Made by a program: the position numbers and the translations under genes
Notes under the pieces: model-generated
What the model saw: the letters and a program-made list of their open reading frames with translations, nothing else
What the model was told of the DNA's origin: nothing
Databases searched by the model: none
Shown here: in pieces, positions 3,841-61,260 of the stretch
Layout of the letters: each line of letters starts with the position of its first letter
Position numbering within the stretch: position 1 is the stretch's first letter
From: Polytrichum commune
Taxonomy: Eukaryota; Streptophyta; Polytrichopsida; Polytrichales; Polytrichaceae
NCBI GenBank assembly: GCA_950295325.1
Contig: OX485808.1
Coordinates: 27,982,527 to 28,046,526, forward strand
Reading direction: 5' to 3'
DNA: 64,000 nt

Positions 3841-6620
3841 TTTTCTTTTGGGGGTGGGGTGGGGGGGGGGGGAGTTCCAACCAAGTTGTTGGAGATGTGG
3901 GATCAAGATGTCATATGTCACATGGTTTCATGTTCTGGCCACGTCAAAGAATATATTGTCATGGTAGGTAAGTTCAATCGTTTGGATTTTGATAAAGTTG
4001 TGCAGGGAGAATGATGGGGTATCCATGGGACTTTTATGCCTACGATGCATAAAATATTGAGGTGTATTCTAGTGAGGCATCTGCAATTTGGGAGAAAGCA
4101 TGAACGCGGGAGTATAGCCAATACGGGAGTGTATGTTATGGATGTCTGTGGATGTCCACGTGATCAAGAGTCAAGTGTCATATGTTGGGATGTGCAAATA
4201 AAGTTTCAGCAATGGCATGGACGGCCTTGTTGTGCCGGTCAGTTTAAAGGTCATCAACATGTTTGTTAATGCAACATGATAGGAGGTGTAGGCACATGTC
4301 ATTTTGATAAAGGCAATAAAGGTTGTTGAATTGGAGAGGGTGTTATCCACGGTTGTTTGTTTGCATAATTCACCCATGGTACATGTTGTATCTAAACTCA
4401 AGAGTTTGCATAATTTCAAGATCCAAGGTATGTTTGGAGCATTAAAAGAGCCTAGCCACTGTGGGGGTCAATGTTTGGGTTATCTAACCATTTTGACGCA
4501 TATGGAAAGATGCATAGAAGACAATATAGCTTTCGTTCACTTGCTTGGTATTTCTTTTAATATTAGAAATGGAGCCGTCATATTGTGTAGATGTAGGTTT
4601 TCATGCATGCCAATAAGAAATTCTATGTCATACGAGGTGGAAGATGATTTAAAAAGGGGGATAGGGTCTCGTGCGGAGCCACCTTTGGCAACTTTATTAG
4701 CTTCATCATTTTCAATGATGTTGTTGTGAGCTTTTAACTTTTGTATTGTAATATGGTGGGGCGTGTTTTGTAGTATGTGGTAGAGGATATGGGCTATCAA
4801 GAATTTGTCCAAGTAGTTATGTTGAAATGATGGGTGGTGGATGTGTAGATTTGTTCAATGGGTGGTGGATGTGGTAGTTGAGAATAGATAGATAGATAGA
4901 TAGATAGACATTATTTTTATACTAAAAAAGTCAATTGTGAGATGTTGGGTGAGTTGTATTGTGAGGAAAAATGCTTCAAATTCAACAAATTTTATTTGGG
5001 TAGCTTGAGAGTTTAGTTGCAACATTTGGTGTGGGTAAGGCCAATGTAAACACCATTGCCATCATTGTCAGGGCAATAAGTTGTTTGTATAGTAAGAGTG
5101 TTAGGTATGGTGTCTTACATGGGGGGTGGTAAAAGATGGAGATAACGGGGGTTGTAATGTGGTTTAGTAGTCCATGAGTGCATAAAATTGTGAGAATGAA
5201 GTGTTATGGAAGGAATGTTTGTATGGCATTGGTGAGAATACATGTGTGTGTTGGGGGGGGGGGTAGGAGGGATGTTATACAAAAGTTGATATGGACTCTA
5301 GTGAGTATTGTGTTGGGTATATAGTAGGGTGAGTAAATGGTTCTTTGGAGGTATAATAGGTGGGAAAGTCTAGAGGAAGGGGAGTGTTGGAGGGTGAGTG
5401 GTGGTGTAGGGTTATGTGATTTATATGAGGGTGATTGAGAATGTCAGAGGTATTTTGAGATCAATCGTTTTGGGAGATGATGAGTATTGAGATGTTGTTT
5501 GGGTGGTGTTGGCTACCATTCTAGCCTACCACATTGCTTTTGGCAAAAGCTTGGAGTGTGGTATACACACATAGCCGTGATTTGTCACTTGAAAGGAGAA
5601 TGTTGATCCTAGTGAGCCAAATATTATGAGGGGAAATGGATTGTGTAAATTGAATTGAGTATGTGAAGAGGGAAGGAGAAATCATAAGACGTGAGTGCAA
5701 AGTTGTGGGAAAGTGGTTGATTAGTGGAAGGACTATATTAGTGGGACGAAGATGTGGTTGTTCAAGACGATTCCAATGATGCCACTAGTGTGAATTATGG
5801 TGTTGATTCATTTTCGAGTTGGTCCAAATATGTGGTATGTTTATTAAATTTATAGAGTGTGGGTGATTTTCTAGGGAGTATTTTGATGTATCTATTCACT
5901 TAGAGGAGGAGTCTTCTAGCAAGATTTGATATGTGTGTGTGTGGGGGGGGGGGGGGGCAATGGTGGTGGTAGGTGTATGATGTTGGAGGCAAAATAATCC
6001 CATAGCCAAAAATATCCTTGTAAGCGAACCACAACAATGTATGTGCCTTTGTGGTTGTGTATCTATGCATAAGGAGGACAAACTCCTATGGTTGATTTAT
6101 TTGTAAGAGTACTTTTGTCAATGTTAAATCCTTTTGGTGTCCGGTGAGGTATGGGATAGTGAGAGGTTGATGTATGTATCTCCAATCTCAAGTTATGGTT
6201 GTGAATATGACTTGTGGAGTTTGTTGTGGAGGTTTCCTTGTTGTGTTTGGTTGTGGCTTGTGCGAGGAGAAGGAGATGGTGATCATATGATATGTGTCCT
6301 ATGAATTTATTTACTTTATTTTCGTGTGTCCATATGTGGAGTGTTGTGGAGAGGAGGCCGTTAGCATTGAATTTTGTATGTCCGCTTAGAGGGACTCCAT
6401 TGATCCTTACATTCTACTAGTTCAAATGAGCTATTTTTTTGAATGTTGCATGGCTTTTGGTTTCGGGGTTGGGATATTTGGGGCGGGTTAAGGATATTTC
6501 ATGGTAGAATTATGTGAAAGTTTTGGTATGTAGTGGGGGGAGGATGCAGAGGGCTTGTGATTTATGCATTTAGGGGAGGGTGGTGATGTCACAGGGAGGT
6601 CACTTCATTGTCAAGTTGAC
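3840..6620 (-). mobile_element. Dead LINE (non-LTR retrotransposon), RNase H and 3' part
   Basis: Read on the minus strand with frameshifts. At about 4700-4810 lies a degenerate RNase H end (KLKAHNNIIENDEANKVAKG, compare the family pattern H-x-G-N-x-x-A-D-x-L-A). At about 4190-4330 there is a zinc-knuckle-like tail (HLLSCCINKHVDDL then DRHNKAVHAIAETL). At about 3930-4000 a further tail block reads IKIQTIELTYHDNIF. The order RNase H, knuckle, tail is that of plant LINE ORF2 3' ends. Minus-strand frames from about 4.8 to 6.4 kb are unusually open for non-coding DNA, but I could not identify reverse transcriptase blocks there. The reading frame is broken in many places, so the copy is inactive. 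The boundaries are approximate. Confidence 0.7.
4884..4907. repeat. (GATA)n microsatellite
   Basis: About six copies of GATA/TAGA in a row, inside the LINE relic on the minus strand. Confidence 0.9.
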
Positions 6621-6860: not shown

Positions 6861-7177
6861 CTCCCTCTGTTTCAAAATAAAACCGTGGTTTCTATTTCAG
6901 TGCGGGATTAAGAACAGTGACCAGCTTTGAACCACAATGCGTTTTTTAACCAAAATTGGGAGCTGCCGAAAATTAGCAAGCTGGCACGGAGTATACAGTA
7001 TTTACCGAGGCTACTGTAGCTTCTTAGATAAATATACCATATTTATTAGTAGGCCCAGCTGCACTGCCGTTGTTAGCCGTGAATGATAGGCATGAGTAGT
7101 GGTAATAACAAAACCATGGTTTTATTCTGGCACGGAGTTTATGCATAAACCATGGTTTTATTGTGAAACAGAGGGAG
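6861..7177. mobile_element. Stowaway-like MITE (317 bp)
   Basis: The ends are inverted repeats: CTCCCTCTGTTTCAAAATAA on the left, and the complement of the right end reads CTCCCTCTGTTTCACAATAA. The match continues to about 28 bases with two mismatches. TA flanks both sides (6859-6860 and 7178-7179), the Tc1/mariner-type target duplication. The CTCCCTCYGT start is the Stowaway signature. An ACCATGGTTTTATT block occurs twice near the right end. There is no coding capacity. Confidence 0.9.
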
Positions 7178-12646: not shown

Positions 12647-12949
12647 GGGTTGGTTCACATGGGTCCCAAGTCCTAAGTCCCAAGTATGACATGGATGCAT
12701 ATATGGCAACACTTTTTGGAGGCGAGGCTTGGGAGTCATGTTGAAAGGTGGGTCGAACAAAAAGCTAGACGCAACTCTCCACTCAAGTCCTGTGAACATT
12801 TTTGCATAAAATAATCAAGATCTGCCTTAAATGATAATTAACCATATTTTAATGGTTTCTTGAGGCTCAAAAGTTGGGACTTTGCCTCCATGTTGGGACT
12901 TGCCAACATGAGTGAGACTTGGGACTCGGGACCCCATGTGAACCGGCCC
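12647..12949 (-). mobile_element. Tourist-like MITE, copy 1 (303 bp)
   Basis: The ends are GGGTTGGTTCACATGGG on the left and the complement of CCCATGTGAACCGGCCC on the right. The flanks are TTA at 12644-12646 and TTA at 12950-12952, the 3-bp duplication typical of PIF/Harbinger (Tourist) elements. Subterminal AAGTCC and CCCAAGT motifs repeat inward from both ends. A second copy in the opposite orientation lies at 24872-25237. There is no coding capacity. Confidence 0.88.
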
Positions 12950-12952
12950 TTA

Positions 12953-14380: not shown

Positions 14381-14383
14381 TTG

Positions 14384-14735
14384 AGAAAACTTTCTATTAA
14401 GAGCTCATTATCTTGTCGTACATTGGAGCTTAATTCGAAAGTTGGGTGAAACTTTTGGGACCTCCTCTTCTACCTCACAAATTTTGAGAGAATATTAGGA
14501 TTGAAATAAGGGTATGGGCACAGGACTCATAGTCCTAGTCACTCATCGGCTTATGCAAGGTTAGCTTGACCCACCCATCCTAGTAGGACAAGCTGGAAAG
14601 TCGACTTTTAATACCCCGACGCCAATTTTTGTGTATGACAATTGAAAACTTGGGTGACTTTGTGTTACGTCTCATAAGCTCGAGGTTTGGGACTAAACCC
14701 CTGCTCTCATCTCCTTTACTTTACAAATAACTCTA
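14384..14735 (+). repeat. Unnamed ~350-430 bp dispersed element, copy 1
   Basis: It aligns by eye along its length with 17037-17465: TTGGGTGAAACTTTTGGGACCTCC, GCTTATGCAAGG, CCTAGTAGGACAAG, GGGTGACTTTGTGTTA, and AGGTTTGGGACTAAACCC. The left end is shorter than in the second copy. No coding content. Confidence 0.8.
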
Positions 14736-14848: not shown

Positions 14849-15048
14849 CTTTTTTTTTTTTTTTTTTTTTGGTTTGAGACAGAAGGCCGACAGGTCAACG
14901 CCAAAGCACAGGAGGCGATTGACCACCTGGCAAGTTTTCCGTCAAGTAGAGAGGAGATTTCACAGCCGGGATTCAAACCGCCAACCTCTTCCTTGAGATT
15001 TGGAAATCTCTCCACCATCATCCAGTAGTTTAAGGTCATCTTGGACCA
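14849..15048 (-). mobile_element. tRNA-derived SINE, near full length (~200 bp)
   Basis: On the minus strand it carries GGTTTGAATCC (RNA polymerase III B box; GGATTCAAACC at about 14970 on the plus strand). A looser A-box-like stretch (TGGATGATGGTGG) lies about 50 bases upstream. The body follows (CGGCTGTGAAATCTC ... CTGTCGGCCTTCTGTCTCA) and then a 21-base A tail, seen as T at 14850-14870. TTTTATAC at 14841-14848 and at 15049-15056 is a plausible target-site duplication. The body is shared with 37950-38075. It has no protein product, and the open frames over it are incidental. Confidence 0.88.
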
Positions 15049-17036: not shown

Positions 17037-17465
17037 ATAGAGTTATCCATAAAGTCCTTCAAAGAGGGACCAAATCCGTGGGTTTGATCCTCCAATGAGA
17101 AAACTTTTCGTGAGACGTTCGTTAGCTCGTCGTGTATCGGAGCCTATTTTGAAAGTCGGGTGAAACTTTTGGGACCTCCTCTTTCCACTGCTCAAATTTT
17201 TAGAGAATTTTAGGATCTAAAATAGGTTATGTGCATGGGACCCGTCATCTTAAATCTTGGATTGGCCTATGCAAGGCTAGTCTGGCCCACCTATCCTAGT
17301 AGGTCAAGATAGAAAGCCAATTTTTTATAACTTGACACCGCTTTCCATGTGTGACTTTTTAAAGCATGAAGTAAACGTGGGTGACTTTGTGTTAGTTCTC
17401 ATAAACTCAAGGTTTGGAACTAAACCCATGGTATCATATGTTTAACTATACAAACAACTTTTATA
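17037..17465 (+). repeat. Unnamed ~430 bp dispersed element, longest copy
   Basis: This copy is the longest of three. The left end (TCCGTGGGTTTGATCCTCCAA) and the complement of the right end (ACCATGGGTTTAGTTCCAAA) look like imperfect terminal inverted repeats, which would make it a fold-back or MITE-type element. It shares its whole right part with 14384-14735, and its left part with 30240-30415 in opposite orientation. No clear target duplication was found. Confidence 0.75.
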
Positions 17466-18960
17466 CCCGCCGGGAATCAATTTGGAAGGAGTGTATAACC
17501 CAATATATTGTTGGCATACTACGTAGTACTCCCACAAGTTTGGCTTGGGATTCATGGTGTCCATGTGAACTCATTCATTGTCTCCAAGAAGATTGAGGGC
17601 CGATTCGTTCCAGCTAGACTCCACTACACTAGTTATAGGTTTTTGATGCTACTTATGAAGTCACATTGTCTAAAAACAATCATTTATAGGCTGTAATATA
17701 GTTCATTGTCTATGCAATAAACGAAGTTTACATAGATGCCACAAATCCCTTAGCCGGTCCAAGTTCGCTTCACACTACGCTTGAGGGACCAACGGAGTAT
17801 GTGAATGCAAGATGGATGTAAAGTCTACATGGATTCCTACATGGCATCAAATGGATCATGTTTCATGGTCACTTGGACTGCTTTCAAAAACCACCTCTAA
17901 GAGGTAGGCCTGACACAAAACCGGGAGACCATGGCACTCCAAATTCTCACAACCGTTAGTGTATTCTAGTTTATCGCATGTGAAGACCCGCACGAATAGA
18001 AAATTCATTGAAAAAGCATTTGGCTGAGGGCCCGGTCACACGTGGCTTCACACTACACTCGAGGGTCCGTGACCACACTACATGATGTTGGAGGTGTCTT
18101 GGGACGGCCTTCGGACACGTTCTTTCGGGCTCTCACCATTTCACGGTCACGGCTCTTGGCTCGCGTGGGGAGCGGCCCTAAAGAAATGGTAGTGCATACG
18201 ACCGGGCCCGAAAACATGGCCACTAAGTGACTGGGATGAGGACAAAGCTGGCATCGGGAGCGGAGATTAAGCTACGGAGGGAAACATGGGCCTCAGTATG
18301 GGCATGGCATGAATGAAATATACTCAATCAAATATTGAGTGAGGCCCGGGAGTCACTCCCTCACTCGCACCGAGTTCCCCATAGTTTATAGTGCCTCTAA
18401 TTAAGTAAGTACGTGGCCTCGCTCACTAGTGGTGGCCCCCAATATGAAATTTCTGGGCATAAACTCCAAGGCCCAATGGGCACGCCCCCCCCCCCCCCCT
18501 CCTTCCCTCTCTCGGGCCACAAAGAGACACGCCAAGTCTTTGGGACTCCAAAAAAACATTCCTTCCCACATGCTTACCAACACTCCCCACATGTGCCGGT
18601 GCTATGGCCGGGCTCTTTCGCCCTTGCTTGCTTGTGTAGACACTATTGATTGCCGGAGGGCGACACTATAGCAAGCCGAGGAGGACGAAGAAGATGAAGA
18701 AGCACCAAGCAAGTTCATTCCAAGCACGGCCCCTTAACCAACAAAAGGCGTGGCTAATCGCGTGATTGCCATGACTTGCATGGGCACTAGTGGGGAATTT
18801 TGAGAGCCGAACATTTCACCCGGGATCTATGACGACAACACCACCGCATCCCCCTTTGGATTGTGGGTGGACGGAATGTGTTGAATGGAAAGCACGGATG
18901 TGTCCTCTTGTGGTATGGTTGATGATGATATGACAATCTTCTCTTGGCTTTCCCCCTACC
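17466..18960. other. Gene-free, locally GC-richer stretch
   Basis: The region from 18.0 to 18.8 kb is GC-richer, with a 15-base C run at 18485-18499 and a GAGGAGGACGAAGAAGATGA-like purine tract at about 18680-18705. The open frames (18042-18230; 18413-18671) lack domains. Nothing supports a gene. Confidence 0.4.
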
Positions 18961-18964
18961 GAAG

Positions 18965-19788
18965 TTCACGCGTTAATGGCAACCACAACGGACGGTGGTT
19001 TACACTAAACTCTCTCTCTAAATTAGTGGAACTTGGTACAGTCCACCCTTGATAAATGTTACACTTCTAAACGTTAACTCATTATATTTGTTAACAAAAT
19101 CGTACTCCCCTCATATTGCTAACTATAATGTTAACTATGTTAAATGTTAATAATAATTTACTGCCCTCTTTGTTAATTTGCCACTTATAAATGTTAACCT
19201 ACGAAATACATCCAATACTTTGTGATGACATCCATTACATTGACTCACAACCTTTCAAAGTGGCAAAAGCCACCAAATTTGACTTTTGTGATCAAATTAT
19301 TCATCTAGACTATATTGATTCTTATTTTGTTTCATAAAAATAAAAGATTAATTTGATACACATATTTTATAAATGATAATTTTGCAAAAATCTCCCTCCA
19401 TAATTATAATGAATTTGTATTTGTTAAGCATTCAAAAAGCTCCCTTTATAACTGTTACAATGTTAACTCACTATAAATGTTAGGAAAATTTTACTCCAGA
19501 GCCTAACATTTATAGAGGGTGGACTGTAATGTATCCACTACGAACTAAAGGAGCGGGGTTGTAGTGGTGGCACCTACCGGGGGTAAGGGTTTACGCATGC
19601 TCCTCTAAGTCTATATTTATTCACTGCTTTAATGGCAACCACAACGGACGGTGGTTTACACTAAACTCTCTCTAAATTAGTGGAACTTGGTAGTGTATCC
19701 ACTATGAACTAAAGGAGCGGGTTTGTAGTGGTGACACCTACCGGGGGTGGGGGTTTAGGCATGCCCCTCTAAGTCTATGTTTATTCAC
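18965..19788 (+). repeat. Tandem duplication of a ~166 bp unit; first copy split by a MITE
   Basis: Unit 1 is 18965-19038 plus 19527-19618; unit 2 is 19619-19788. Both run from GGCAACCACAACGGACGGTG through CTAAATTAGTGGAACTTGGTA to GAACTAAAGGAGCGGG, CACCTACCGGGGGT and CTAAGTCTAT.TTTATTCAC. The element at 19039-19526 interrupts unit 1 exactly where unit 2 is continuous, so unit 2 preserves the empty site. Confidence 0.92.
19039..19526. mobile_element. Emigrant/pogo-like MITE (488 bp)
   Basis: The ends are inverted repeats of about 23 bases: CAGTCCACCCTTGATAAATG on the left, and the complement of the right end reads CAGTCCACCCTCTATAAATG. TA flanks both sides (19037-19038 and 19527-19528). The adjacent unit at 19619-19788 shows the uninterrupted site with one TA. 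The CAGT start, the CTCTATAAAT motif and the TA target are those I associate with pogo-type Emigrant/Lemi MITEs. The interior is AT-rich with many GTTAA/TAAATGTTA repeats and no coding frame. Confidence 0.9.
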
Positions 19789-22700
19789 TTCCATTGGGTG
19801 CCGTTGGACTATGTTGGGGGACTATGATTGTGATTTAGGAGTGTTTTTTTTGGATATGAATCAAAGTTCATGGGCTTGTACAATGTGTTTTCATCATCCC
19901 CCTTGGTAGGTTTCACGAAATTTTACATGTTTGTTGTACTAGCATTTTCATTGTCCATGTCATGTGAAACAAATCATTGGTTTAGCATGTGGTGTATCAA
20001 TGCATGGCTTCAATGCATATGATTTACAAATTGATAGCAATTGTAAATTATTATGTAGTTGGTTTGGACACAATTGTAGTGTGGACTGTACATTTATGTT
20101 GCACCTCTAGTATGGCAAATTTCAGCTTTGTTCATGCACCTTGATAATTAGATGAGCCGTCATGTAAGTATATAAACATGTTTGTGAGTGGATGAGGGGT
20201 TGATCACATCAGCTAGTTATGACACCATTTGTCGGCATCTATGGCTGTAATAGTGTGAAAAATGGTGGGCCAAAATCCATTTCTCAACATAATTTCCGTC
20301 AATTACACGGCTGAAATCGGACGGAAAGTTTGGTGCGATCGGGACATCATGAGTCAATAAACTCATAGCTAAGTTGCCACTTGTCACTCGCTTAGGCAAG
20401 TGATATGCTCATTGTGCAAGAAATGAAGGCATATAAACTCAAACAAGCATTTTTTTCTTTTTCTTTTATGTACTTCTTGCTATGCTAATAGACTCATGTG
20501 TCAGTTCGTTGCTTTTAAAAAACATTTGTTTAGATCATGAAAGTAAAGCTCAATGAGTCCAAAGTCAAACTACAAGTTATGAAGAACTTACTCGTGAGCA
20601 TCTAAAAACATTCTTCTATAACGGGCTATTACTAGTGACGTGGTTACTCATTTTGGGTCATAAAAACCTTCCATCTCCCAAAAAAAACATAGTGTAACGA
20701 GGACACCACTCAAAGGCCAAGGCCGATTCAAGGAGAGGCGCGTGCTAGAGGCTACATTTGTAAGCTTCGAATGTGCCTACACTACACACTAAGTTATACC
20801 TACGACATGTTGGGAAGAACTTCAAGAATTCGACGTGGGTCTACCCTTGACTCATGGCCCACACTACTAAGCTAGATGGTGCCAATGATAGCAAGACAAA
20901 CGATATTTGGTCTTCGTAATGCATCATGACTAAGTCATCACGGTAGCCTACGATGCACCCTAAAAACCAAGCGTATGTCAATGATGATATATATATATAC
21001 ATGTGTGTGTGTGTGAACATAAGAAATTGAAAGGAAGAAAAACAACATAGGTGGCCGGGGCCACATATATTTGGCACTTGTCGTGGTGGATGAGGTCGCA
21101 TGTGAGTGGAGTCCGAAAGGATTCAAAGAAAGGGATAACATCGTACACATCAAGGGCAAGGGCGAGTGCGAGGAAAGGCAAGGCAAGGCGACGACTCCCT
21201 CTCCTTACTTGTTTGTGTCCAAACCACAATCATCATGTGCCCGCCGGTTTCCCTAGGATATTTCCGGGACCGTATAATTATAAGAAGGTGGGCCGCTATA
21301 GACCGGGATCTAGATAGAAAGGAAAAAAACATCCCCCCAAAGTGGTTGTCCGTTGTCATAAAAAAGGCTTTTCGTTGGCAATGGAAATAGAAAGGCATCC
21401 CATGACTCGTGGCCTTCATTCGAGGGCCCACGGGCCGGGGTGGGCATATATATGTATGTCGACATGTCATATGCATAAGTGTAAGTTAGGCCTTGGCCTC
21501 TAACTTTGGCAAACGGGCACATCGAGTGACACCCCAACTAATTGTTAACTTATTCCACAAAACGATGCCCCCCCCCCCTTTATTCTTTATTACTTGGATT
21601 CAAACCCCATGGGCCGGAATTGGTCACGCACTAAGTTATACTTACTTCTCGAGCGAGCTTCGAGGATGCACACATGTGGTAGGTTTTTGTCTGAACTGTG
21701 GGGAACTTCCGTGTACCTCCACCCCCCCCCCCCGTCCGCCCTAATTCTACGATCTTCATACCGTGTACATCTTGGGGTGGTCTACCAATTTAGCGTCGAC
21801 TAAGGGAGGGTTTAGTGACAACTACCCTAAACAGTCGTGTTGGTGTGGACCATAGTAACGTTATAGAGCCCGCGCCAATTCTTGTGGTGAAAACGAATGT
21901 GGGTTATGTTAAAATCTTCAACCCACGCTAAATGTTTCTTAGGAAAGTAGTGTGGATTTGGAAAAAGAACGTGGGGTGATTCTTTTTTATTGTGTCCTAC
22001 ATCTAATGTTTAATGTGTTGATCGGAAGCCTTCGTGAAGACTTAGGGGTAAGATCCAGGGTCTTGGACCCACATGAATGCCACCTTGACAATAGGAATTA
22101 GTGTGGCTCACGCTAACGACTCTCCGCCTGCACTAATAGGACCAATTACTGTAGTTGTGGTCCAAAGACCAAGGAAACTCCCAATTTGAACGATCTTAAT
22201 GGTTGAGAGAAAGAAAGAAAAGAAAAGAAAAAATGGCCTATGGAGTTTACATTGGGATCCAAGTTCAAGGTATGAATAAACAACGTGGCACTGTTCTAAC
22301 AAGCCTTGGCGGTTCTCACTTGGGAAAATACCGATATCCTTGGTTGTGAAACCCATCTTCAAGTTCAAATCTCAACCCTGAGTCTGAAACGACATTCCAC
22401 GAAGGCATGTTTTGCAGCCCGTGTTTCTTGGACCCGTACCCTAATGTAAACCCATCTCAAGTTATTTGCATCATTTATTTGCATCACCCTAAACCCTAAA
22501 CCCTAAACCCTAAACCCTAAGGAAAGACAAAAGGAAAAGAAAAAAGTGACGTCCCCTTGTATGTTGTTCTTCATGCCAACACTAGTGTGGGGGTGAGTGA
22601 GCGAGCGAGAGAACCACCAACGGTTCGAATCTCTCCGGCACCGTATATGTAATTACGATAATTATCAAACTAGCTAATTATATAATACATAGACATTGGG

Positions 22701-24868: not shown

Positions 24869-24871
24869 TTA

Positions 24872-25237
24872 GGGCCGGTTCACATGGGGTTCCTAGTCCC
24901 GAGTCCCAACACGGAGGCAAAGTCCTAACTTTTGAGCCTCAAGACACCATTCAATTATGATGAATAATCATTGAAGTTGGCTCTTGATTATTTTGTGCAA
25001 AGATATTCACATGACTTTGTTGAGAGTGGGATCTAGCTTTCTGCTCGACCCAACTTTTAACACAAGTCCCAAGCCGCACCTTCAAAAAGTGTTGTCATGT
25101 AGGCATCCGTGTCGTACTTGGGACTTAGGACTTGGGCCCCCTGTGAAGTGGTAAGTCCCAACTCCCATGCTCTCAATGGTTGAGATTGCATGAATTGACT
25201 TGGGACATAGGACTTGGGACCATGTGTGAATTGGCCC
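24872..25237 (+). mobile_element. Tourist-like MITE, copy 2 (366 bp), with a duplicated terminus
   Basis: The ends are GGGCCGGTTCACATGGGG and the complement of CCATGTGTGAATTGGCCC. TTA lies on both sides (24869-24871 and 25238-25240). The body aligns with the reverse complement of 12647-12949. This copy has about 60-70 extra bases near the right end (about 25130-25200) that contain a second, internal ACTTGGGCCCCCTGTGAA block like the terminus, as if one end had been duplicated. No coding capacity. Confidence 0.9.
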
Positions 25238-28778: not shown

Positions 28779-29065
28779 CTTCCTCCGTCCCAAAATGATT
28801 CTCATGCCTCTCTTGGATTTTTTGATCCCAAAACGATTGTCCGGTTGATTTGCCAGGCTAGAAATTCGAGGCTCAAAGTCAAATATTTTTGCTCCAAACT
28901 TTCCATCATCAAGAAGTCTTTCAACACCGCAACTTTAGGAGGCATTTCAATGTTGTTGTTTTTATTTATTTTAAGAGTCATACTTATAACTACTCCGTCA
29001 ATGGTCAACGGGCCTTAATCTCACCAAGGTTCAGAACACGGACAATCATTTTGGGACGGAGGGCG
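28779..29065. mobile_element. Stowaway-like MITE (287 bp)
   Basis: The left end is CTTCCTCCGTCCCAAAATGA, and the complement of the right end reads CGCCCTCCGTCCCAAAATGA. From the fourth base the ends match for about 19 bases. TA flanks both sides (28777-28778 and 29066-29067). CCAAAACGATTGTCCG near the left repeats the terminal motif, as if the terminus were partly duplicated. No coding capacity. Confidence 0.85.
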
Positions 29066-29600
29066 TATCACTATCTATAGTAAATAGTGTGGGCATATTT
29101 ATAGTGATGCTTCTTGTGTGCAACTATATAATGTAACCTACAATTTACAATATCACACACCAATCAATATGCAACGCTAATTAAACCTTGGCATGCCCTC
29201 GGGATATACCCACTTTCTTCCTCTAGGTTGGAAGTCCTCAAAATGTATACTAGTCCAAACCAATATAAGCATTGTAACTTACAACGTAGATCTCTAATAC
29301 TAAATATTGGAGATTGATAATTGGTATGCACCCATAATATTATCCACAATGTTTGGCTCATGGAAGTATGCTCGCCAATGTAACCACACTATTTACCATA
29401 ATCAATGTAGTGAAAGCTCCCCGAATTTGAAATTCTCTCAAAGAATGATGGAATGTGTCTACGCATGCAAAAGTGTGATGGCTCTTCATATGTATACAAT
29501 ATACTTGTGAGTGGTAGGGTTACAATATGCTAACTTATTCATTTTGTTTGCGTTTATATAGTCCAGCCCCCCCCCCCCCCCCGGGCGCACACCGTGTAGG

Positions 29601-37934: not shown

Positions 37935-37949
37935 GAATGGTCAATTCCT

Positions 37950-38075
37950 CCCGGCTGTGAAATCTCTTCTCTACTTGACGGAAAAACTTGCTAGGTGGTC
38001 AACTGCCTCCTGTGCTTTGGCGTTGGCATGTCGGCCTTCTGTCTCAAGAAAGAAAAAAGAAAAAAAGAAAAAAAA
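37950..38075 (+). mobile_element. 5'-truncated SINE with 15-bp target-site duplications
   Basis: It begins at CCCGGCTGTGAAATCTC, i.e. just after the B-box region of the fuller copy on the minus strand at 14849-15048, and shares its body (CTCTACTTGACGGAAAAACTTG ... GTCGGCCTTCTGTCTCA). It ends in an A-rich tail broken by G. GAATGGTCAATTCCT (37935-37949) and GAATGATCAATTCCT (38076-38090) differ at one base and are the target-site duplication. Truncation at the 5' end plus an A tail indicates target-primed reverse transcription driven by a LINE. Confidence 0.95.
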
Positions 38076-44290: not shown

Positions 44291-45225
44291 TAGATAAGCG
44301 TTCATAAGGTGTCATTCTAGCACCTTACATAGCATATATTCAGCCCCACCCAACCCAATCGATCAGTTGAATGTTAATGTTATGTTCCATTCGCCCTGAG
44401 GTCAGTTGGGAATCATCACTTAACCTATAAAATCTTGTTAAAATGGTTTCATTCCAAAACAACATCCCGTGTACCATTTGTACGATTGAAAGCACAATTG
44501 TTTGAGGCATTTCAACGAAATGTTAACAAACTAACATTGAATTTCAACTATAGAAAATTCATGCATTTGCGGCAAATGACTCTGCATGACATGTTCAAAC
44601 AATAAAGTATGAACCCTAATATTTGTCAAAAAAATTGTGCACTTAACCGGGAATCGTACTCCATTGGGTGCATACTTAAGCGGGAGATTATTGTATAAGT
44701 GGAGACCCTCCGCAAGAAGTGTGAGGCAAAGGAATCTAGAGAGGGTTTTTTTTTGTCAAAAACAATGAGAGATTGGCCCTTGGAGGTACATGGGATGTTG
44801 TTTTGGAATGAAAGGTCTCGATTTGGGTCACGTGTATGTTTAAGGCTTATATGTCCACTTTCTTTTATTGACATGCTTATGTCAAACAAAAATAGGTAAA
44901 TGACATTCTTCATCATCATTATTAGCACTTTCACATTCCCATAATTGAGCCATAATTAAGGTGTCAACATCATGATTATTGTAGATGTATAACAATGTCT
45001 TCGTAACGTGATGTACCTTGGCGGTACTTTCGTTTAACTCTCTTATATATTGATTAATCCATGAAGAATGTTGACTAACGTATTTTGTTGTACTTAGCAT
45101 GTGAGTGTACAAGTAGTCAGATAACTCCCAAAGAAGAATAAATTCTTGAACTTGGGTTAGACAACCCAAGAACGGGTTGTAAACGAGGGCTATACAACAT
45201 GTGAATGAATTATGCACGTGACTCG

Positions 45226-45590
45226 GACAAGTCTTGATGAAAGATCTTCGCATTGGAGTTAGACAAGTCTTGATGAAAGATCTTTGCATTGGAGTTAGAC
45301 AAGTCCAATTGGGAGAGACCTCTGCTCATGTAAGGTCTTAGTGTTGGAGTTAGAAAAATCCAACTAGAATATATGTGAGTTAGACCTATTATGATGTAAG
45401 ATCTTAGTGTTGGAGTTAGAGACATCCAACTAAAATATATGGGAGTTAGACTTGTTTGGATGTAAGATCTTAGTGTTGAAGTTAGAGAAATCCAATTAGG
45501 ATATACGGGATTTAGACCTCTTATGCTGTAAGATCTTAGTGTTGGAGTTAGAGATATCCAACTAGGATACATGGGAGTCAAATGAACTCA
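45226..45590. repeat. 66-bp minisatellite with a 36-bp sub-array
   Basis: The anchor GATCTTAGTGTTGGAGTTAG recurs at exactly 66-base steps (GGTCTT 45334, GATCTT 45400, 45466, 45532). Upstream, two shorter units start at 45243 and 45279 (36 bases apart). Both periods are multiples of three, so the minus strand reads as one 123-codon frame of 22-residue repeats (SLTPTLRSY...) and 12-residue repeats (DLSNSNAKIFHQ). Each unit also has a short inverted pair (TTGGAGTT ... ATCCAA). Coding is possible but not supported by any flanking gene structure. Confidence 0.9.
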
Positions 45591-51169: not shown

Positions 51170-51716
51170 ACCAATGAGAGATCGTCGAATGCAACGGTCA
51201 CGGGCCTTCAGTCTCGTGTGTGAAGTGGCCCTGAGTCCTGAGCACTGGAGACGAGAGTGGATAGGTATGATGAACAGGAAGGGAGAACTTGTCATCCGAG
51301 ACCACATAGTTCATCCATCCATCCGGGCGTCACAATGCAATCCTCCACTCGCTCGCCAAGACTCCTCCACTCGCTCGCGAATGGCCATGCCGTGTCGTGA
51401 TTCCAGCGTCAGACTCGGAATTCGCAATTCTCCTCTGCAACAAACTCACGGCAAGGAATTGCTCACCTCCTCCTCGCACCGGGCACCGTCTTAATTCTGC
51501 TTGCCCTTGTGGTGTTGTTGCGGGAGTGCGAATTCGTTGTCGCTCCGTTCCGTGGTTTGTAGAGGAGGGATGGTGGAAATTAGGGTTCAGTAGCTCTGAA
51601 GGGAGCTGTAAACCTGCGAGGGATTTGGGATGTGCTTGCTCATGTGAGGAGGGATTGCGCGCTTGGGGAGGGACGGCGACGGTGGTGCGTGATTCCGCTG
51701 GCTTGCACGCATCCCC
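51170..51716 (+). promoter_or_regulatory. Probable core promoter and 5' leader of the CNNM-like gene, with two uORFs
   Basis: Base composition changes near 51.2 kb from AT-rich repeat DNA to GC-richer, CT-containing sequence, as expected at a gene's 5' end. A CCAAT motif lies at about 51171. Two short upstream reading frames precede the main ATG: one starts at 51570 (7 codons before TAG at 51591-51593), and another begins near 51629 (5 codons). They could lower or condition translation of the main frame, but that is inference. No clear TATA box was seen and the transcription start cannot be placed from sequence alone. Confidence 0.5.
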
Positions 51717-54700
51717 ATGGCGCAGAGTTTGGCAGTGAGCTTGAATTTGAGGTCAGCCTTTGCGGGGGGGAGCGTGGTTAGGGTACGCAGCAGGCATGAT
51801 GGAGCGTGGGAAAGAAGGAGGAGCGGGAGAATTGCTACGGTGGCATGTGGATTGCAGCAGCGGCGCAGGGTGTGTGGAGTGCAATCTTTCGTGGCGGAGA
51901 ATAATGTGGGCGGAATTGGTGAATCAGGAGACACGGGTTTGGGTCGTTTGGAAACCTTAGGGTTATGGAGAACCTCACATAGGAATAGGTGCACTTCGTC
52001 CCTCGAGGCCGCGAAAAGTCCTTGTGTTCCTGCAGAGGCAGCGTTTCCGGAGAGTGCAGGACTGGCCATTCTGGCGGGTGCATTGTTGCGGTTGGCTATA
52101 TGTAAGTTTTTTCAGTACGCAATTTGTTGCGGTGAGCTTATTATAGTTTGAGAAGCACATTTTGATATTGCTCCTGATCAATTCTCGAATCTTACATTGT
52201 CTCTTCTGTCGATGGAACAGCACTACACCAGTTTGCGTTCAATCAAAAAACCTTACAGTCGAGGAATTGCGAAGTCTGGAATGAGGTTAGACCCTATACA
52301 GTTTCGACTCTGTATGGAATCATGAAGCAATTGCATTATAAGGAGGTAGTTGCACAGATCTGGCAAGTTCAAATTAGTATAGCAAAACCTCATAAACCCA
52401 AAAGCACCGTGAACAGAAAAGATGGTCTATAGACCTCCTCGTTGACACTAATGCCCTTGGGGTTCGGGATGCACTTCACTAGTAAAGAATGCGCTGAACT
52501 CATATCAGAGCAGAAACTGGAGAGTAAAATTGTTACATTCTTCCAAATAAGAAGCAGCTCATTCATGAGTTCATTAGAGGTGGATTTCTAGCTGTGGATG
52601 AGCTGCTGTGCTCTTATGATTTCATACCTCAAAGTAACTGCCTTTTTGGTTCATGGGTTTTGTACACTTGCGAACAATGTGTAGAGCATCTATTTTACTG
52701 TAGTATGACAGTAGAGCATGTGTCTTTAGACTTTACTATAAGACGATGGTTGGTTTCGTTGCTAAATTATAATTTTAACGAACCTGTGCAATATATGTAG
52801 CTGGTAAACCTGATTAAATCTGGATTTCTTACTACATCAGCTGACAGGGTTTTGCAGGGGTTATAGAGGCACCAGCAGATGTGCATTTGAAGAATCTAAA
52901 TAGTCAAGTGAATGAAAATGCATCCCACTGGAATCGACCTGGAAGATTGGCCAGATATATTTTCTGGATATGGACTGCAGCAGTATGTGTTGCTTTGTGG
53001 GCAGGAGGTAAGAATTTATGGCTTGGCTGTTTAAAGAATGTTATAGGCTGAGATAGGGTTGATAGCCTGCTAAAATCATAACAAGAAGACTGAATAAGTT
53101 GTATTACATTTTGTTGGCGCACATTGTTGGATGTGAGGCATGTCGGTTAAGGCCAAATTTTGACAATTTGCCAAAATCAAGGAGGCTGTTTCCTTCTTGG
53201 ATGTGAAAAGTCTTATGTCACCTAGACTGTCAGACATCATCACATATTCAACAAGTTATCCTGCATAGTAGGTAACTGGGCTTTAATTGCAGGTAGGACT
53301 TGCAATTTTAGTACTTCAAAACTTGGGCTTCAGCCAGGTTCTGCTTTATGGTTGGCACACAAATTATTTAGGGTTGAAAATGTGCAGTATTGTAAATGAA
53401 AGATTCTCTTTGATTCTTCTGTCTAAATACTGCTGTTCTGATTCGCATCTTCTCTTTAGGCTGAACTTACGAGTTCATGTCATTACCAGCAGGACTACTC
53501 TGTGTGCCATTGTCTCAGTAGAGGCAAATAGCTTGCTGGTAGTTTGAAGTAGTGTGAGACCTTCCTGCCTCGGTGATGCAGTTTGCACAAATATGTCAGT
53601 TGCCGTTGATCACTTTTCTGCTTAAAAGTGTTAGAGTAGAACTGGGGCACCAGCTGACAGAATGTTGTCAATTCAGCTTTGTAGTGTTACATCATGTCAT
53701 TGGATACAGTGGGTGATGCTTTGACAGGAGGTGGTCTAGCACTCGCATCTGACAGCAGCGCAGGTGCACTGTTGCCGCCTCTTGTTGGAGATGCTAAGTC
53801 TTCTATAAAATCAACATTAACAGCTATGTGGCCCAAAACAAAGCAGGTTCTTGAGGTGTTAAGAGATCAAGGACTTCTCTTGTCCATTCTTCTCGGCTTG
53901 TCTGCTTTTTTCTCTATGGCAGAGACTTCTATTACTACTCTCTGGCCTTGGAAGGTACGAATTCTATGTAGTTCCTTCAATGCCATCTCAGAAAATATAT
54001 TTGAAGTGCCTTGCCAATAGTGTGTTAAAGTATTGTAATGGTGAGGTTCTTGTAAGGTGAATACCTGCAAGATATTGGTCAACCAGGACCACTTGGGCTT
54101 TAGTCATCAGGTTTTGTGGACTATCAGGTAAAGTTTGGTTTTTGGAACCTTCCCACACTAACTCTGTGAGAAGATTGTGCTCGTGGTGGTTGTTGTGGAT
54201 AGAATCTACGCTCTGCTACAAGATTATGTTTGATGAACAAGATTTTGAATGTGAAATAGTTCTCATTGTCAACAGTCTTGAGACATTAATATGAGGAATG
54301 CAACATTTCTGTAGCCAGTGTCTATGGTAGTCCTGACTTCTAACGATTTGTGAGTGATGATTGTCTTGTTTTAACATTGCTGCTTTATTCTCTACAGGTG
54401 CGAGAGCTGGCAGAGAAAGAGGGAGAAGGTGGAGTTTTTCATGTACTACGCCAAGATGTTACACGTTTCCTCACCACAATTCTGATAGGCACAACGTAGG
54501 TTCTTCACTTTTTGTACCTCACTTTGTTTTTCAAATCATTGTTTCCAATGAAGCTGAATTTTCGTCCCATGGCTGTCAAATTTTTCATTGGGGGCAGCCA
54601 GCTCACAAGTCAGTGTTCACCAGTGACAACTTGAGCAGATTCTAATTATGTGCTCCACTTATAAATGTCTCTGTGCACCTTTATAACCTTAAGAACGGAA

Positions 54701-57700
54701 TCATATATTGTTCTGTTGTTATGCAATTGACAATAATGAGATTGTTAAATGGTTCAACAGGGTTGTCAACATTGCAGCAACAGCAATGGTCACCGAGGCA
54801 GCCACAGCCCTTTTTGGAGAAGCAGGAGTTACAGCAGCTACAGGTGTCATGACGGTGAGTGATATAGTCACTCTTGTCTCCACTTGTCCAACAAGAGTAG
54901 GTAGGTTAAATTGAACGTTGCATCTTGCATGTGATGGTTTGTATTATTACGTTTACTGTCAAAAGACCTCTCATTAATGTACTAAATGTTGCTGAAGATA
55001 GGGGTCTAGCTGTTAGAGGCTCCTGATAATTAATGACGACCATGAGGTAGTGCTGGTTGCTTCATTTTGTTTGCAAGCTTATGGGAAACTCCATCTGTTA
55101 TGGATGCCAAGCAGTGAGCAGAAAATAACATATAATTAGCTATAGGTGGTTGGAATTCCGCCAATAGGAGCTGGATGCCAGCAGAAAAACTTCAGTAGAC
55201 GACTTAATTGAAGCCTTCAGATATGAGGAATCCGTGGCAAAGACTAGGCAGTTGGATTATCTCATTGTGGAGGTTAGACTTATGAAGATTCAGGCCTCCA
55301 AATGTTGTGTGTGCTAGGGTTTCAATTACAGAGTTTAAATCGACAAACTACATGTAGTATTTATCATATAGGACTGACGGGTTGCCTTAAGAAACATTTA
55401 GGGACTGTTACATAGATGGCAGGCACACATTCTTGATAATATCTAGAAATTGTCAGATAATTAGGACTGTTTGGACTGGCTGGAAGAACTCATGTGGGTT
55501 TTTCTTACTTGGGTTTTTTTTTGTGGACCTACCTGGGGACTTTTCCTGTCCGCTAGACTGTAGTCCACACAAGATGGATATTGTAACTGCTTACCTTCAG
55601 TAGTGCCCTACGTTTTTAGATCTACTTGTGTTGTATTCCCTCTTTGTTTTGTAATTTTTGTAATTTGTTCTTTTCCTTTTGGTGCAGGTTGTACTTCTTT
55701 TAGTGACAGAGATTGCTCCCAAGAGTATTGCTGTGCATAATGCAACAGAAGTGGCACGTGTTGTGGTAAGTTGTCTCTGAAAATGTGGGGGTTCTTGGAG
55801 CTGATAAGAACTGAATATTGTAGTCAATAATGATGTGGGTATTATTCTGTTGACTGAAAAAGTTGTTCTTAATTTTTCAAATTGAGGCTAAAGAGTGAGT
55901 TGTTTGAGATGCAGGTGCGGCCAGTTGCATGGCTATCCATAGTCCTCTACCCAGTAGGACGTGTAGTGACTATGATGTCCACAAGTCTCCTAAAGCTATT
56001 AGGTTTAAAGAGCAGTGGGTAAGATTATATATTGTATTCTCAAAATTTTCAATAGAATCATGCTTTGAATTTAAGACCTAAGTTTTCACCTGACTTAATT
56101 GCAGTTGCCCTTCTTTTTAAGCTGTCTTTTATATTGAATGGACAGTTCAATAGCAACATGCTTATAACCTCATTGTAAATACTACAATGAGCATGACCTC
56201 TAGGTGCTTACAGCTAATCGTCTTTTGATCTGTAGGGAGCCATTTGTAAGTGAAGAGGAGCTCAAGCTGATGTTACGAGGAGCAGAACTCAGTGGGGCCA
56301 TTGAAGAAGAGGAGCAGGTATTGCTTATTGTTCATAGGGTTGATTGACCAGCATCATGTTAGTATCTCTAGTCAGTTTGTACAGTAGTCAAATGAGGGCA
56401 GCTCTGATTAACCCATTCATGTCGCAGGACATGATAGAGAATGTGTTGGAGATCAAGGACACATATGTCCGCGAAGTGATGACTCCTTTGGTAGATGTGG
56501 TGGCCATTGATTCAGCTGTACCCTTGATGGAGTTTCGTAATCTTTGGGTCAAGCACCAGTACTCAAGGTAATCAGTTTGGGTTTTTGAAGTACCAACAGT
56601 ATTTTTTCTATCTTTGGGATGCTTGTGGATAATCATAGAACCTATGCTAGGGAGATCTAGATTACTTTTGAGAAGATAAACAGTCATAGAAGGTACCTCC
56701 AGGAATATATTTGAATAATTGTGAGAGACTCTTAGAAGAGGTTGTGTGAGTACAGATGGCTTATAAGAATTCTAGGGGGATTATTTATCTTTAGCTCTGT
56801 ACTTAAAAAAAATGCAATATTTACTCCTATGTATGGTATTCATGAAATGCAGAGTACCAGTTTTCGAACGGCGTATAGACAACATTGTTGGGATAGCATA
56901 TGCCATGGATATGCTTGACTATGTAGAGCAGGTGAGATCCTTGGTGAAAGATCTACAGATTTTTGGGAGGAAGCCTTGGTAGATGATTTAAGCTTTTGTG
57001 GTGCCTACTTCTAGTTTGGGAGGCTTTTCCTCATCTGCCTACTCTGCATTTCGGTAATTGTTCAACACACTGTAGGTGTTCTTTGATGTATATTGCTCCT
57101 CATAAAATTTGTACCCTCAATAAATACTACAGCAGTGATGACTGTTTGAATGTTATTCTTATAGTACCTTGACATTGCTCATCATGGCAGGTGGAATTGT
57201 TGCAAAGAATGAATGTGGGACGAATTGCTCATAGGCCAGCTTACTTTGTTCCAGGTAATTGGTCATCTGAGACCTAATGGCGGAGGCATAAGATTCACAT
57301 GCTTCCTTTTAGGTCGATGTATAAGTAGTTGATAGGTTCCATGTGGATAATGACCTAGTCAGTGTTATTCTTGTTGAAATGATCCCATTTGCGGAATTGT
57401 TGTGCAGACTCGATGTCTGTATGGAATTTATTGAGGGAATTTAGGATACGTAAAGTACACATGGCGATTGTGCTGAATGAGTATGGTGGTACTGTCGGGG
57501 TGAGTTTTATTTTTCAAGGCACTTTGTGTTGATGTAAGGAATGTATTAGTATTTGACTTAGTTATTTTTATGCAAGCTAAGGCAAATTTCAAGGTGCAGC
57601 TCTGAAATCGGTGTGTCAAATCTTCTGTAGTTGAAGATAGATGGCTCTTCCTGCATGTTGCAGGTCTATGTTCTAAATCTTCTGTGTCTGGGGTGACTCT

Positions 57701-59738
57701 ACAGGTTGTGACTTTGGAGGATGTTGTAGAAGAGATTGTAGGTGAAATATTTGATGAAAATGACTCCAAGGTTTGTCATATTTCTGCCCGATGGTGTCAT
57801 CGCTTTTGCCTGAGTGTCTACCTATGATCTGTGTGATATGCTTGTTGCCGGAGTGATCATCACTTTTTAAATTACGAACTTATGATTTCGTATTGAGAAT
57901 TGTGAGAAAGGATAGCACTTCACTGCAAATTAATGTCAAAGTATTTCATTCTTCTAGTCTTTTCTTCATTGCCACTCCTGCATGAGTGTTGTTTGTTAGT
58001 TATGGCTTCCCATGCTCACTATATATGAAATGGCCAATTTCCCAAATTATGAAAAGTGATAGAATGTCTTGTTGTAGGATATTCTACTGTGAGGATCTGA
58101 TAAAGTGCAATGGATGTAGTGGATCGAACACATTGTAGGCGTGTTGTTGCTGAAGCTCTTTGGTCAATGAGAGACCATCAGACTGTTTGTTCTAATTTTG
58201 CATGTTTATCTACAAGTTCTGTTTATCTTAAAGACTACTTCTAGGTATATATTCATCTGTTACCATTGTCCCCCTCAATTTATGAAAGCATTGAAATTGA
58301 TGCTGGCCGTTTTTAAATGCAGGAGGAAATTCGGAAAAAAACTGGTTACGTGGTACAAAGAGCTGATGGGGTTTTTGACGTGGATGCCAACACATCTATA
58401 GAGGACCTTGCTGATTCACTAGAGATAAAACTTCCTGAGGTGGGTTCATGAACATTATGTATTGTTTTCACTCAAATTAGTTTGGGGATTTTATTTGCTG
58501 GTCATTGACTGCAATTAATGGAAGGTTTTGTTTTCTTACAAATTTGAACTTGCTATCTTTTGCAGGGTTCACACCACTATGAAACCGTGTCAGGGTTTGT
58601 TTGTGAGGCCTTTGGCTACATTCCTCGTACTGGAGAGAGCACCAAGGTTGTACTGCGGAAAGCAGATTTTGAAGAAGGTGAGAGGCGAGATGGAGATGGT
58701 GAACATCAGCAGGAGGATCGGAGAGACAAATTTCAGAAATATCGATTGGATGTATGTGAAATCACGAACTCAAGACAAAACCTAGTATTATGTCTTCCAT
58801 TATCTGTGTGGCCAAATAATGTTCTGGGAAACTACTGATTGTTGTGACCAATTGAAATTATGTTCAGATTCTTGCTGGCAATGCTCGAAAGGTAGGATCA
58901 GTTCGGTTTGAGAGAATGGAAACAACAAATCAAAGTAAGGAAGAGAACGAAAGAGGGCTCCCACGTGCTTTGCGACGTGGTCGAGAGGAAGCCAATGGCA
59001 ATGAAGACATGTAAGAAAGTCATCTATGACAACCTCTATATGACAGCCAACTTGTTGATGAGGAACATTGCTCAGCATTTCATGAAATTATTAATGTCTT
59101 GTGCACATCATTATTGCTATCGTAAATGTTGAATTGCAATTGAGAAGTATGTAATTGAAGACAATTCTGGATATGCAAAATCATGCAATCTTGGCATTGT
59201 CAACTTCCTCACATCTTACGCTTGAATGACATTTGACAGGTCTGATTCAGAGGAACCTCACTGGCAGGAGCCTGAGGGGAGTGCTTCAGAAGCTGATTCT
59301 GATGATGAGGGGTGCCGCCCATCTGATGAAGACTCCAGGGACAGACCAAGTTACTATCTCCCAACGTTTTCTGACTGCAGAAATGAGACAGCTGCAGTCA
59401 CTGCAGATGGGCTGTCAATGATGGGTACGCAAGACTGGGACTTGGACACAGTCGAAGAAGTTATAAGAGAAGGGGTGGAATTGGACAATGGAGCTGATGA
59501 AAGCACTGCAAGCATTGTGGCTAAATTGACAGACAAGTGGGAGGAAGAAGAGGCACAACTTGAGAGGCGCCGTAATAGGAGGCGGAAACAATCTGCTGAA
59601 GCTGCAGCGGAGCTTGCAAGACAGAGAAGGTCAGATCTGCGACGACGAGAGGCTGAGGCCGAGCTTGCCATGTCTGCACCCAGAAGGGGCAGGGAGGAGC
59701 AAGCAGAGCCAGAATCATATCAAGAACCTGGGAAATGA
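51717..59738 (+). CDS. Plastid CorC/CNNM-type protein (DUF21 + CBS pair + CorC_HlyC), 17 exons
   Basis: Exons by splice-site reading: 51717-52101, 52858-53007, 53710-53954, 54398-54495, 54761-54854, 55688-55765, 55915-56018, 56236-56317, 56428-56567, 56853-56931, 57191-57254, 57408-57499, 57705-57770, 58323-58439, 58566-58751, 58868-59010, 59240-59738. All introns are GT-AG and all phases agree, giving 873 residues. The ATG is in good context (ccATGG) and follows an in-frame TGA. Residues 1 to about 60 are Arg/Ser-rich, as in a chloroplast transit peptide. Hydrophobic stretches lie near 115-128 and 160-178. DUF21/CNNM spans about 233-385 (FFSMAETS, ILIGTTVVNI, TEIAPKS). The CBS pair is about 425-560 (REVMTPLVDVVAI, NEYGGTVGVVTLEDVVEEI). 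The CorC_HlyC domain is about 575-690 (GNARKVGSVRFER). From the family, I infer Mg2+ or divalent-cation transport at a plastid membrane; Arabidopsis At1g55930 and At3g13070 look orthologous. The tail (708-873) is extra. The weakest calls are exons 1-2 and the exon 3 acceptor. Confidence 0.93.
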
Positions 59739-60690
59739 CCTCCTTCAAACTGCCATTCAAATCTTTAGTGTAGAATTGTCTTGTCGGATCAAGGTTTCAG
59801 AAAATCTGCCCTTGTTCTGCGGAGGCTGGGGTTTGTGTGCATCATATAGCGACCATTAATTTGTAAATTCTGAGATTCATGTCCTTAGGTTGCTTTGTGC
59901 CTCGATCGTTCTCAGAAGTCAAGTATCCAAAGTGCAGAATGTCTAGGTGCATTTTTGTCTGCAGCATAGTCTGTTCCTTGGTTAGTTGGCTTGTCCAGGT
60001 ATAGGACTATTTCAGTCCTGGTTGTATTTGTCATCACGGATGTGTATCATAGTGCATTTATCCTTCTATCGGCTGAAAGTGCAAACTCATGGATGCACGC
60101 TTTTCTTTATGGGTCATAAGCTCTGATTCAAGATTCATTTGTGTCTGTTGTGCAGTGGATTGTGAGACTACATTTCCAAACTACAATATCAATATCAGTT
60201 TGCTATGAGCAAGGGTTTACTGAAAAAGGAAACCAAAAGAAATCAAACCTGGCTCTTTATTGAAACGTAATTCCAAAAATTACTTGCACAAAATCCCGAG
60301 GGAGAGAATGAGAGACTGGGAGTCAAGGAGACGGGTTGAAACAACTAACCATAAGAATGAGCGAAGAGTCTCTTGGACCACACCGGCTCTTAGTAACCAG
60401 GAATTCAAGAATCCAGGACACATTCAACCAATGAAGGAGAAAGGGTCGGCCACAGTTCATGGTGTGTGGGAGTTTGTGAGGAAGAGAATTTACCTGTTTT
60501 TGGACCTATAAGTCTGATTCGATTCAGTATCCCAAAGTCAAAGCACATCGACTTGGAGAATCTTGTATATTTCCGGCACTTGTAATCATAGGTAGTATAT
60601 ACATGGACTTAGATCCTCGGCAGATGCCATGTTATTTTTGATGTATGTCCTTGGCATTTCTTAATAAAAACTTGTACATTTGCAAAAATT
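59739..60690 (+). promoter_or_regulatory. Probable 3' UTR and polyadenylation region of the CNNM-like gene
   Basis: After the TGA at 59736-59738 the sequence keeps the gene-like, mixed composition of the introns for about 800-900 bases. It then turns AT-rich and repeat-like. A canonical AATAAA lies at about 60663-60668. A plus-strand open frame at 60260-60511 has no recognisable domain and is probably chance. The length of the UTR is inferred from composition and that single signal. Confidence 0.4.
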
Positions 60691-60779
60691 CCCTCAATAT
60701 TGGGCAAGCTCATAGAATATTTTCCAAACATCCAACAAGTCTAATATCTTAAACTTACATTTAATTCATTTGGCATGTG

Positions 60780-61260
60780 AGTTCTAGAGACCTCGCCAAA
60801 AATGGAGAAGATGGCATCATGTGCTGTTTGGTGGCATGCATTTCTTGAAAATACGTAGAGGCATGTGGCTCTCCACAAACACACTCAATGGCCACCAAAA
60901 AAGCATATATGGCCAACCACACACCCAAGCCCAAATTGCACATTATGCCCAAATGATGCAACAAATACTTGGTCATATTTATTGTCCATATGTTCAAATC
61001 AACATATAAAAGGACTCCGAATAGGTCACCATAATAACGCGGCCCACCAAACAGTGCATACACTCCAATCAAACAAGCATACACGCTATTACATCCTTAT
61101 CAACATAGGAATCCAGAACTCTAGGCCCCAAGATGTAGCAATCCCAAATGGGTATTTGAATGTACATGCATATTTACATCCAAATACCCATTCTTTCAAT
61201 CACATTCCACTTTCATGTGTATATGTTATTATGAGGCCTTCATTATACATCTCACCTTGA
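60780..61260 (+). mobile_element. LINE 3' fragment with zinc-knuckle tail
   Basis: The plus-strand frame at 60865-61260 contains NCTLCPNDATNTWSYLLSIC then NQHIKGLRIGHHNNAAHQTV and KHTRYYILINIG. The C-x2-C...H...C spacing and the LRI..HN.A.H block are those of the zf-RVT tail of plant LINE ORF2 proteins. The same kind of block is seen in the minus-strand relic at 4190-4330. Nothing upstream of it (no RT or RNase H) is present, consistent with a 5'-truncated insertion next to the 3' end of the CNNM-like gene. Confidence 0.75.
61133..61200. repeat. 17-bp inverted repeat
   Basis: AATGGGTATTTGAATGT and, about 10 bases later, ACATCCAAATACCCATT form a near-perfect hairpin (one mismatch) within the LINE fragment. 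Confidence 0.8.

Follow-up and report, generated by a model that had tools for sequence, protein, structure and literature searches.

A MITE-like element beside its empty target site in a tandem duplication of Polytrichum commune

The window, a stretch of 64,000 nucleotides (64 kb) of Polytrichum commune DNA, contains two tandem copies of a short unit, and the first of these is interrupted by an element of 488 bp (Table 1). Unit 1 extends over 18970–19625 and comes to 166 bp once the element and one TA are removed, while unit 2 is 164 bp long. The alignment thus bears out the preliminary description of this DNA, which had reported a tandem unit of about 166 bp carrying the element in its first copy only. 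The motif TTCAC, present at the left edge of the duplication, recurs at 19620–19624 and 19784–19788, so that it marks all three edges; at both right-hand edges it is followed by an extra T (TTCACT vs TTCAC at the left edge). Tandem duplications that arise through microhomology usually show such shared bases at their edges.

Table 1. Coordinates of the tandem units, the inserted element and its parts (positions within the window)
Feature	Position	Strand	Remarks
TTCAC, left edge of tandem duplication	18965..18969	+	
Unit 1, left of insertion	18970..19038	+	1 substitution and one 2-bp indel vs unit 2
Left TA	19037..19038	+	end of the left part of unit 1
MITE-like element, without Pfam match	19039..19526	.	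488 bp, 28% GC
Left terminal inverted repeat	19039..19061	+	23 bp, starts CAGT
Inner TIR motif ATAAATGTTA, 5 copies, up to 1 mismatch	19140..19482	+	all copies on this strand
Right-end inverted pair	19466..19520	.	arms 19466–19484 and 19502–19520, 17 nt between
Right terminal inverted repeat	19504..19526	-	23 bp, + strand end is ACTG
Right TA (target duplication)	19527..19528	+	
Unit 1, right of insertion	19529..19625	+	9 substitutions vs unit 2
Unit 2, uninterrupted	19626..19789	+	164 bp, empty target TA at 19691–19692

Aligning the two units and counting their differences had been proposed beforehand. Over 164 aligned columns there are 10 substitutions (7 transitions and 3 transversions; 6.1% different), together with a single indel of 2 bp inside a CT run. 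The Kimura two-parameter (K2P) distance of 0.064 corresponds to about 2.5 to 16 million years when rates of 1.3e-8 to 2e-9 per site per year are applied, an age that would date the tandem duplication and not the insertion. Substitutions are unevenly distributed about the insertion site, with one to its left and nine to its right (Fisher p = 0.05, calculated on 67 columns to the left and 99 to the right, the latter falling to 97 if the TA is not counted). Gene conversion of the left half, halted by the insert, would produce such a split, but at this borderline value it is not claimed as the cause.

The ends of the element are formed by terminal inverted repeats (TIRs) that match at 21 of 23 positions, with outer ends CAGTCCACCC. 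A pattern built from these repeats, with the two differing positions left open and up to three mismatches allowed, matches the window twice, at the two ends of the element itself; with the same settings there are no matches across 100 shuffles. A scan for inverted pairs lying 100–1000 bp apart, bounded by TA, agreeing in their first four bases and matching at 18 or more of 23 positions, finds two in the window, namely this element and one that is Stowaway-like. Neither the TIR pattern nor blastn (E up to 1) reveals a second copy of the element in the 64-kb window, the blastn matches outside the element being short and partial (14–28 bp). The same pattern has no match in viral_contigs or in genome_contigs, which is unsurprising because these collections consist of viral and prokaryotic DNA. 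No Pfam domain, and specifically no transposase, is matched in the six frames of 17500–21500 at E values up to 0.1, and Rfam (gathering scores) and ARAGORN gave nothing over the whole window. At 20078–20091 on the minus strand lies a lone sequence that agrees with the element's outer end, TA included, at 13 of 14 bases, with no partner end seen.

Internally, the element repeats the inner part of its TIR. Copies of ATAAATGTTA with at most one mismatch start at 19140, 19187, 19369, 19448 and 19473; these five in the element core compare with a mean of 0.34 in shuffled sequences, and none of 300 shuffles reaches five. At two mismatches the excess is weak (7 vs a mean of 3.3, with 13 of 300 shuffles reaching 7). 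Seven pairings of a motif with a mismatch limit were compared in this way, each with 300 shuffles: in three of them no shuffle reached the observed count, in three others one did, and ATAAATGTTA at two mismatches, with its 13, is the seventh. Near the right end, the right TIR and its inverted partner could pair as a hairpin. Folded as a single strand, the element has a z-score of -5.0, and 0 of 100 shuffles are as stable.

The filled site in unit 1 reads CTTGG-TA-(CAGTCC...GGACTG)-TA-ATGTATCC and the empty site in unit 2 reads CTTGG-TA-GTGTATCC. There is accordingly a TA on both sides of the element and a single TA in the second copy, as first described, and the TIR pair lies where the alignment of the units is broken, which upholds the view that the ends and the TA duplication can be defined within this one window. 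Five placements of the break are equally compatible with unit 2, with 2 mismatches each over 30 compared bases, and four of the five yield identical joined letters. Several placements fit because the element has GTA ahead of its left end and again at its right end; the symmetry of the TIR ends identifies the duplication as TA and not GTA.

Extra bases in unit 2, an excision footprint that the preliminary description had named as refuting its reading, are absent: the break shows the single TA with no added base and no remnant of the TIR ends. A boundary mismatch, which it had named alongside, is present, in that the base directly after the TA is A in unit 1 and G in unit 2. This difference is read as an ordinary substitution rather than an added footprint, because the length of the alignment is unchanged there. 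In both units the site has the form TA-NTG-TA (ATG in unit 1, GTG in unit 2), and this could possibly be a remnant of some insertion that predates the duplication.

As far as sequence features can indicate, the CAGT...ACTG ends, the TA duplication and the repetition of the inner TIR point to the Tc1/mariner-pogo group. Two traits of that group are found here, a TA target duplication as defined against an empty site, and short TIRs. The element is also short (488 bp), AT-rich (28% GC) and, with no Pfam match, non-coding, which together with its TIRs and TA duplication lends support to the original interpretation as a MITE. The word MITE implies a multicopy family, of which the element, with one copy within the 64-kb window, is a candidate member. 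Tourist elements (PIF/Harbinger) produce a 3-bp duplication of TAA or TTA. Membership of that group was considered and rejected, since the left flank ends in GTA and the right flank begins with TAA, so that only TA is shared when the ends are symmetrical.

Among known MITEs the closest is probably Emigrant of Arabidopsis, which is of similar size, with a TA duplication, ends starting with CAGT and a CTCTATAAAT-like inner part; several outer bases of its end are unlike those found here, and the likeness of the ends is tentative. Loot et al. are reported to have described, in 2006, subterminal repeated motifs that are bound by proteins of the pogo-like Lemi1. The present element likewise has subterminal repeats, in its case of the inner TIR, to which a transposase may bind. 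By analogy, the likeness to Emigrant suggests that a transposase of the pogo/Lemi type would act on the element. A literature search for the end sequences returned, among the matches listed, no transposon paper as judged by title.

In one study of pogo elements, TA duplications are given for families other than Fot and Fot-like, TIRs of 40 bp or less for most families, and land-plant members (Lemi) for 23 eudicot species (PMC7386202). Plant pogo clades are reported in Selaginella and in dicots in another study (PMC7325037). Among mosses, Tc1-like elements with CAGT...ACTG ends and TA duplications are described in PMC4054914; PpTc1 and PpTc2 of Physcomitrella resemble the present element in both respects, and related empty sites were used there in like manner, but they are 1,584 and 1,709 bp long, have TIRs of 33 bp and encode a DD34E transposase. 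Stowaway MITEs are similar in being short, non-coding members of the Tc1/mariner group with a TA duplication, but according to PMC1925063 their ends are CTCCCTCCRT. Membership of Stowaway was rejected on the basis of these ends, those of the present element being CAGTCCACCC. That the locus holds a CAGT-ended MITE of the pogo/Lemi type, with subterminal inner-TIR repeats on one strand, in a plant lineage without a recorded pogo element, is a rather doubtful proposition.

The element is very probably a non-autonomous Tc1/mariner-pogo MITE that was inserted by cut-and-paste transposition into the TA of the first of two units already in place. The tandem unit would have arisen first, through microhomology-mediated duplication. 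The element would then have been carried into unit 1 by a transposase from another locus, most likely a pogo/Lemi-type enzyme, acting through the TIRs as binding sites and perhaps through the inner repeats as well; unit 2 would never have carried it. Duplication followed by insertion is the simplest reading, being the order with the fewest events, and its basis is parsimony. The 6.1% divergence between the units is consistent with this order, in that the element would have had time to insert once the duplication was in place, but does not prove it.

The preliminary description had offered two histories, an insertion after the duplication, or before it with precise excision from the second copy. 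The first stands as the simplest. Beside the second there is a third, in which the filled and empty units originated together when a chromosome carrying the element underwent unequal exchange, or template switching, with one lacking it. The TTCAC motifs at the three edges suit a microhomology junction whichever chromosomes were involved, and are compatible with such an origin; however, the insertion must then have been polymorphic when the duplication formed, and nothing observed in the window calls for this, making it an unlikely course of events.

Quite improbable, too, is that the element predates the duplication, that both units were once filled and that it left unit 2 precisely. Unit 2 is indeed clean, and exact restoration of a site, and so a clean empty site, can be obtained by repair from an empty homologue. 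Such a loss requires one event more than insertion into a pre-existing unit, and the losses described for the group in PMC1925063, those of Stowaway elements and the excision of Osmar5 in yeast, leave footprints of 1–4 bp of TIR beside the TA, whereas unit 2 carries none that is not also present in unit 1. That no transposon is involved, and that the locus reflects an AT-rich insertion by chance or an error of assembly, might be argued from the single copy in the 64-kb window of one genome, but is practically negligible given 23-bp TIRs and flanking TAs where the tandem unit is interrupted and a strand that folds better than all 100 shuffles.

With insertion into the first of two existing units as the favoured history, the locus exemplifies a familiar type of event, an unexceptional MITE-like insertion, and the element is new at most as an unnamed representative of an established type. 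Its value lies in the arrangement: a filled site beside an empty paralogue defines the ends and the target duplication without recourse to a second genome, and the pair provides both an order of events that is testable in relatives and a local measure of divergence. What is gained is of practical rather than conceptual use, in annotation and as a probe for what may be an unnamed MITE family.

Other repeats are scattered over the window. A Stowaway-like MITE lies at 6861–7177, with ends CTCCCTCTGTTTC that match at 22 of 23 positions and a TA on both sides. A second one occupies 28779–29065 (CTTCCTCCGTCCC / CGCCCTCCGTCCC) and is adjoined by a further inverted-repeat pair at 29076–29400. At 44447–44813 there is an inverted-repeat pair of 29 nt, 97% complementary and 309 nt apart, without TA at its ends, which is possibly a MITE of another type. 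A repeat found at 14850–14971 (minus strand) and 37949–38073 (plus strand) is 89.6% identical over 125 columns; the one copy examined contains a GGTTTGAATCCC stretch and a poly-A tail, resembling a tRNA-derived SINE. Two more dispersed pairs, of unassigned type, are 79% identical (12654–12950 and 24871–25147) and 74% identical (14382–14732 and 17096–17459).

Exon-like pieces of a CNNM/CorC_HlyC protein are found on the plus strand at 51600–60900, where the three plus-strand frames were scanned; the CorC_HlyC piece scores above its cut-off, and the two CNNM pieces are just or well below theirs. Proteins of this kind are not confined to plants. A tandem array of a 66-bp unit, in 3.8 copies, is located at 45328–45578, with a 36-bp array adjoining it at 45226–45305, and the telomere unit ACCCTAA, of the plant type, is repeated five times at 22486–22520. 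GC skew reaches 0.51 over the 2 kb at 4001–6000, the highest value among the 32 steps of the window.
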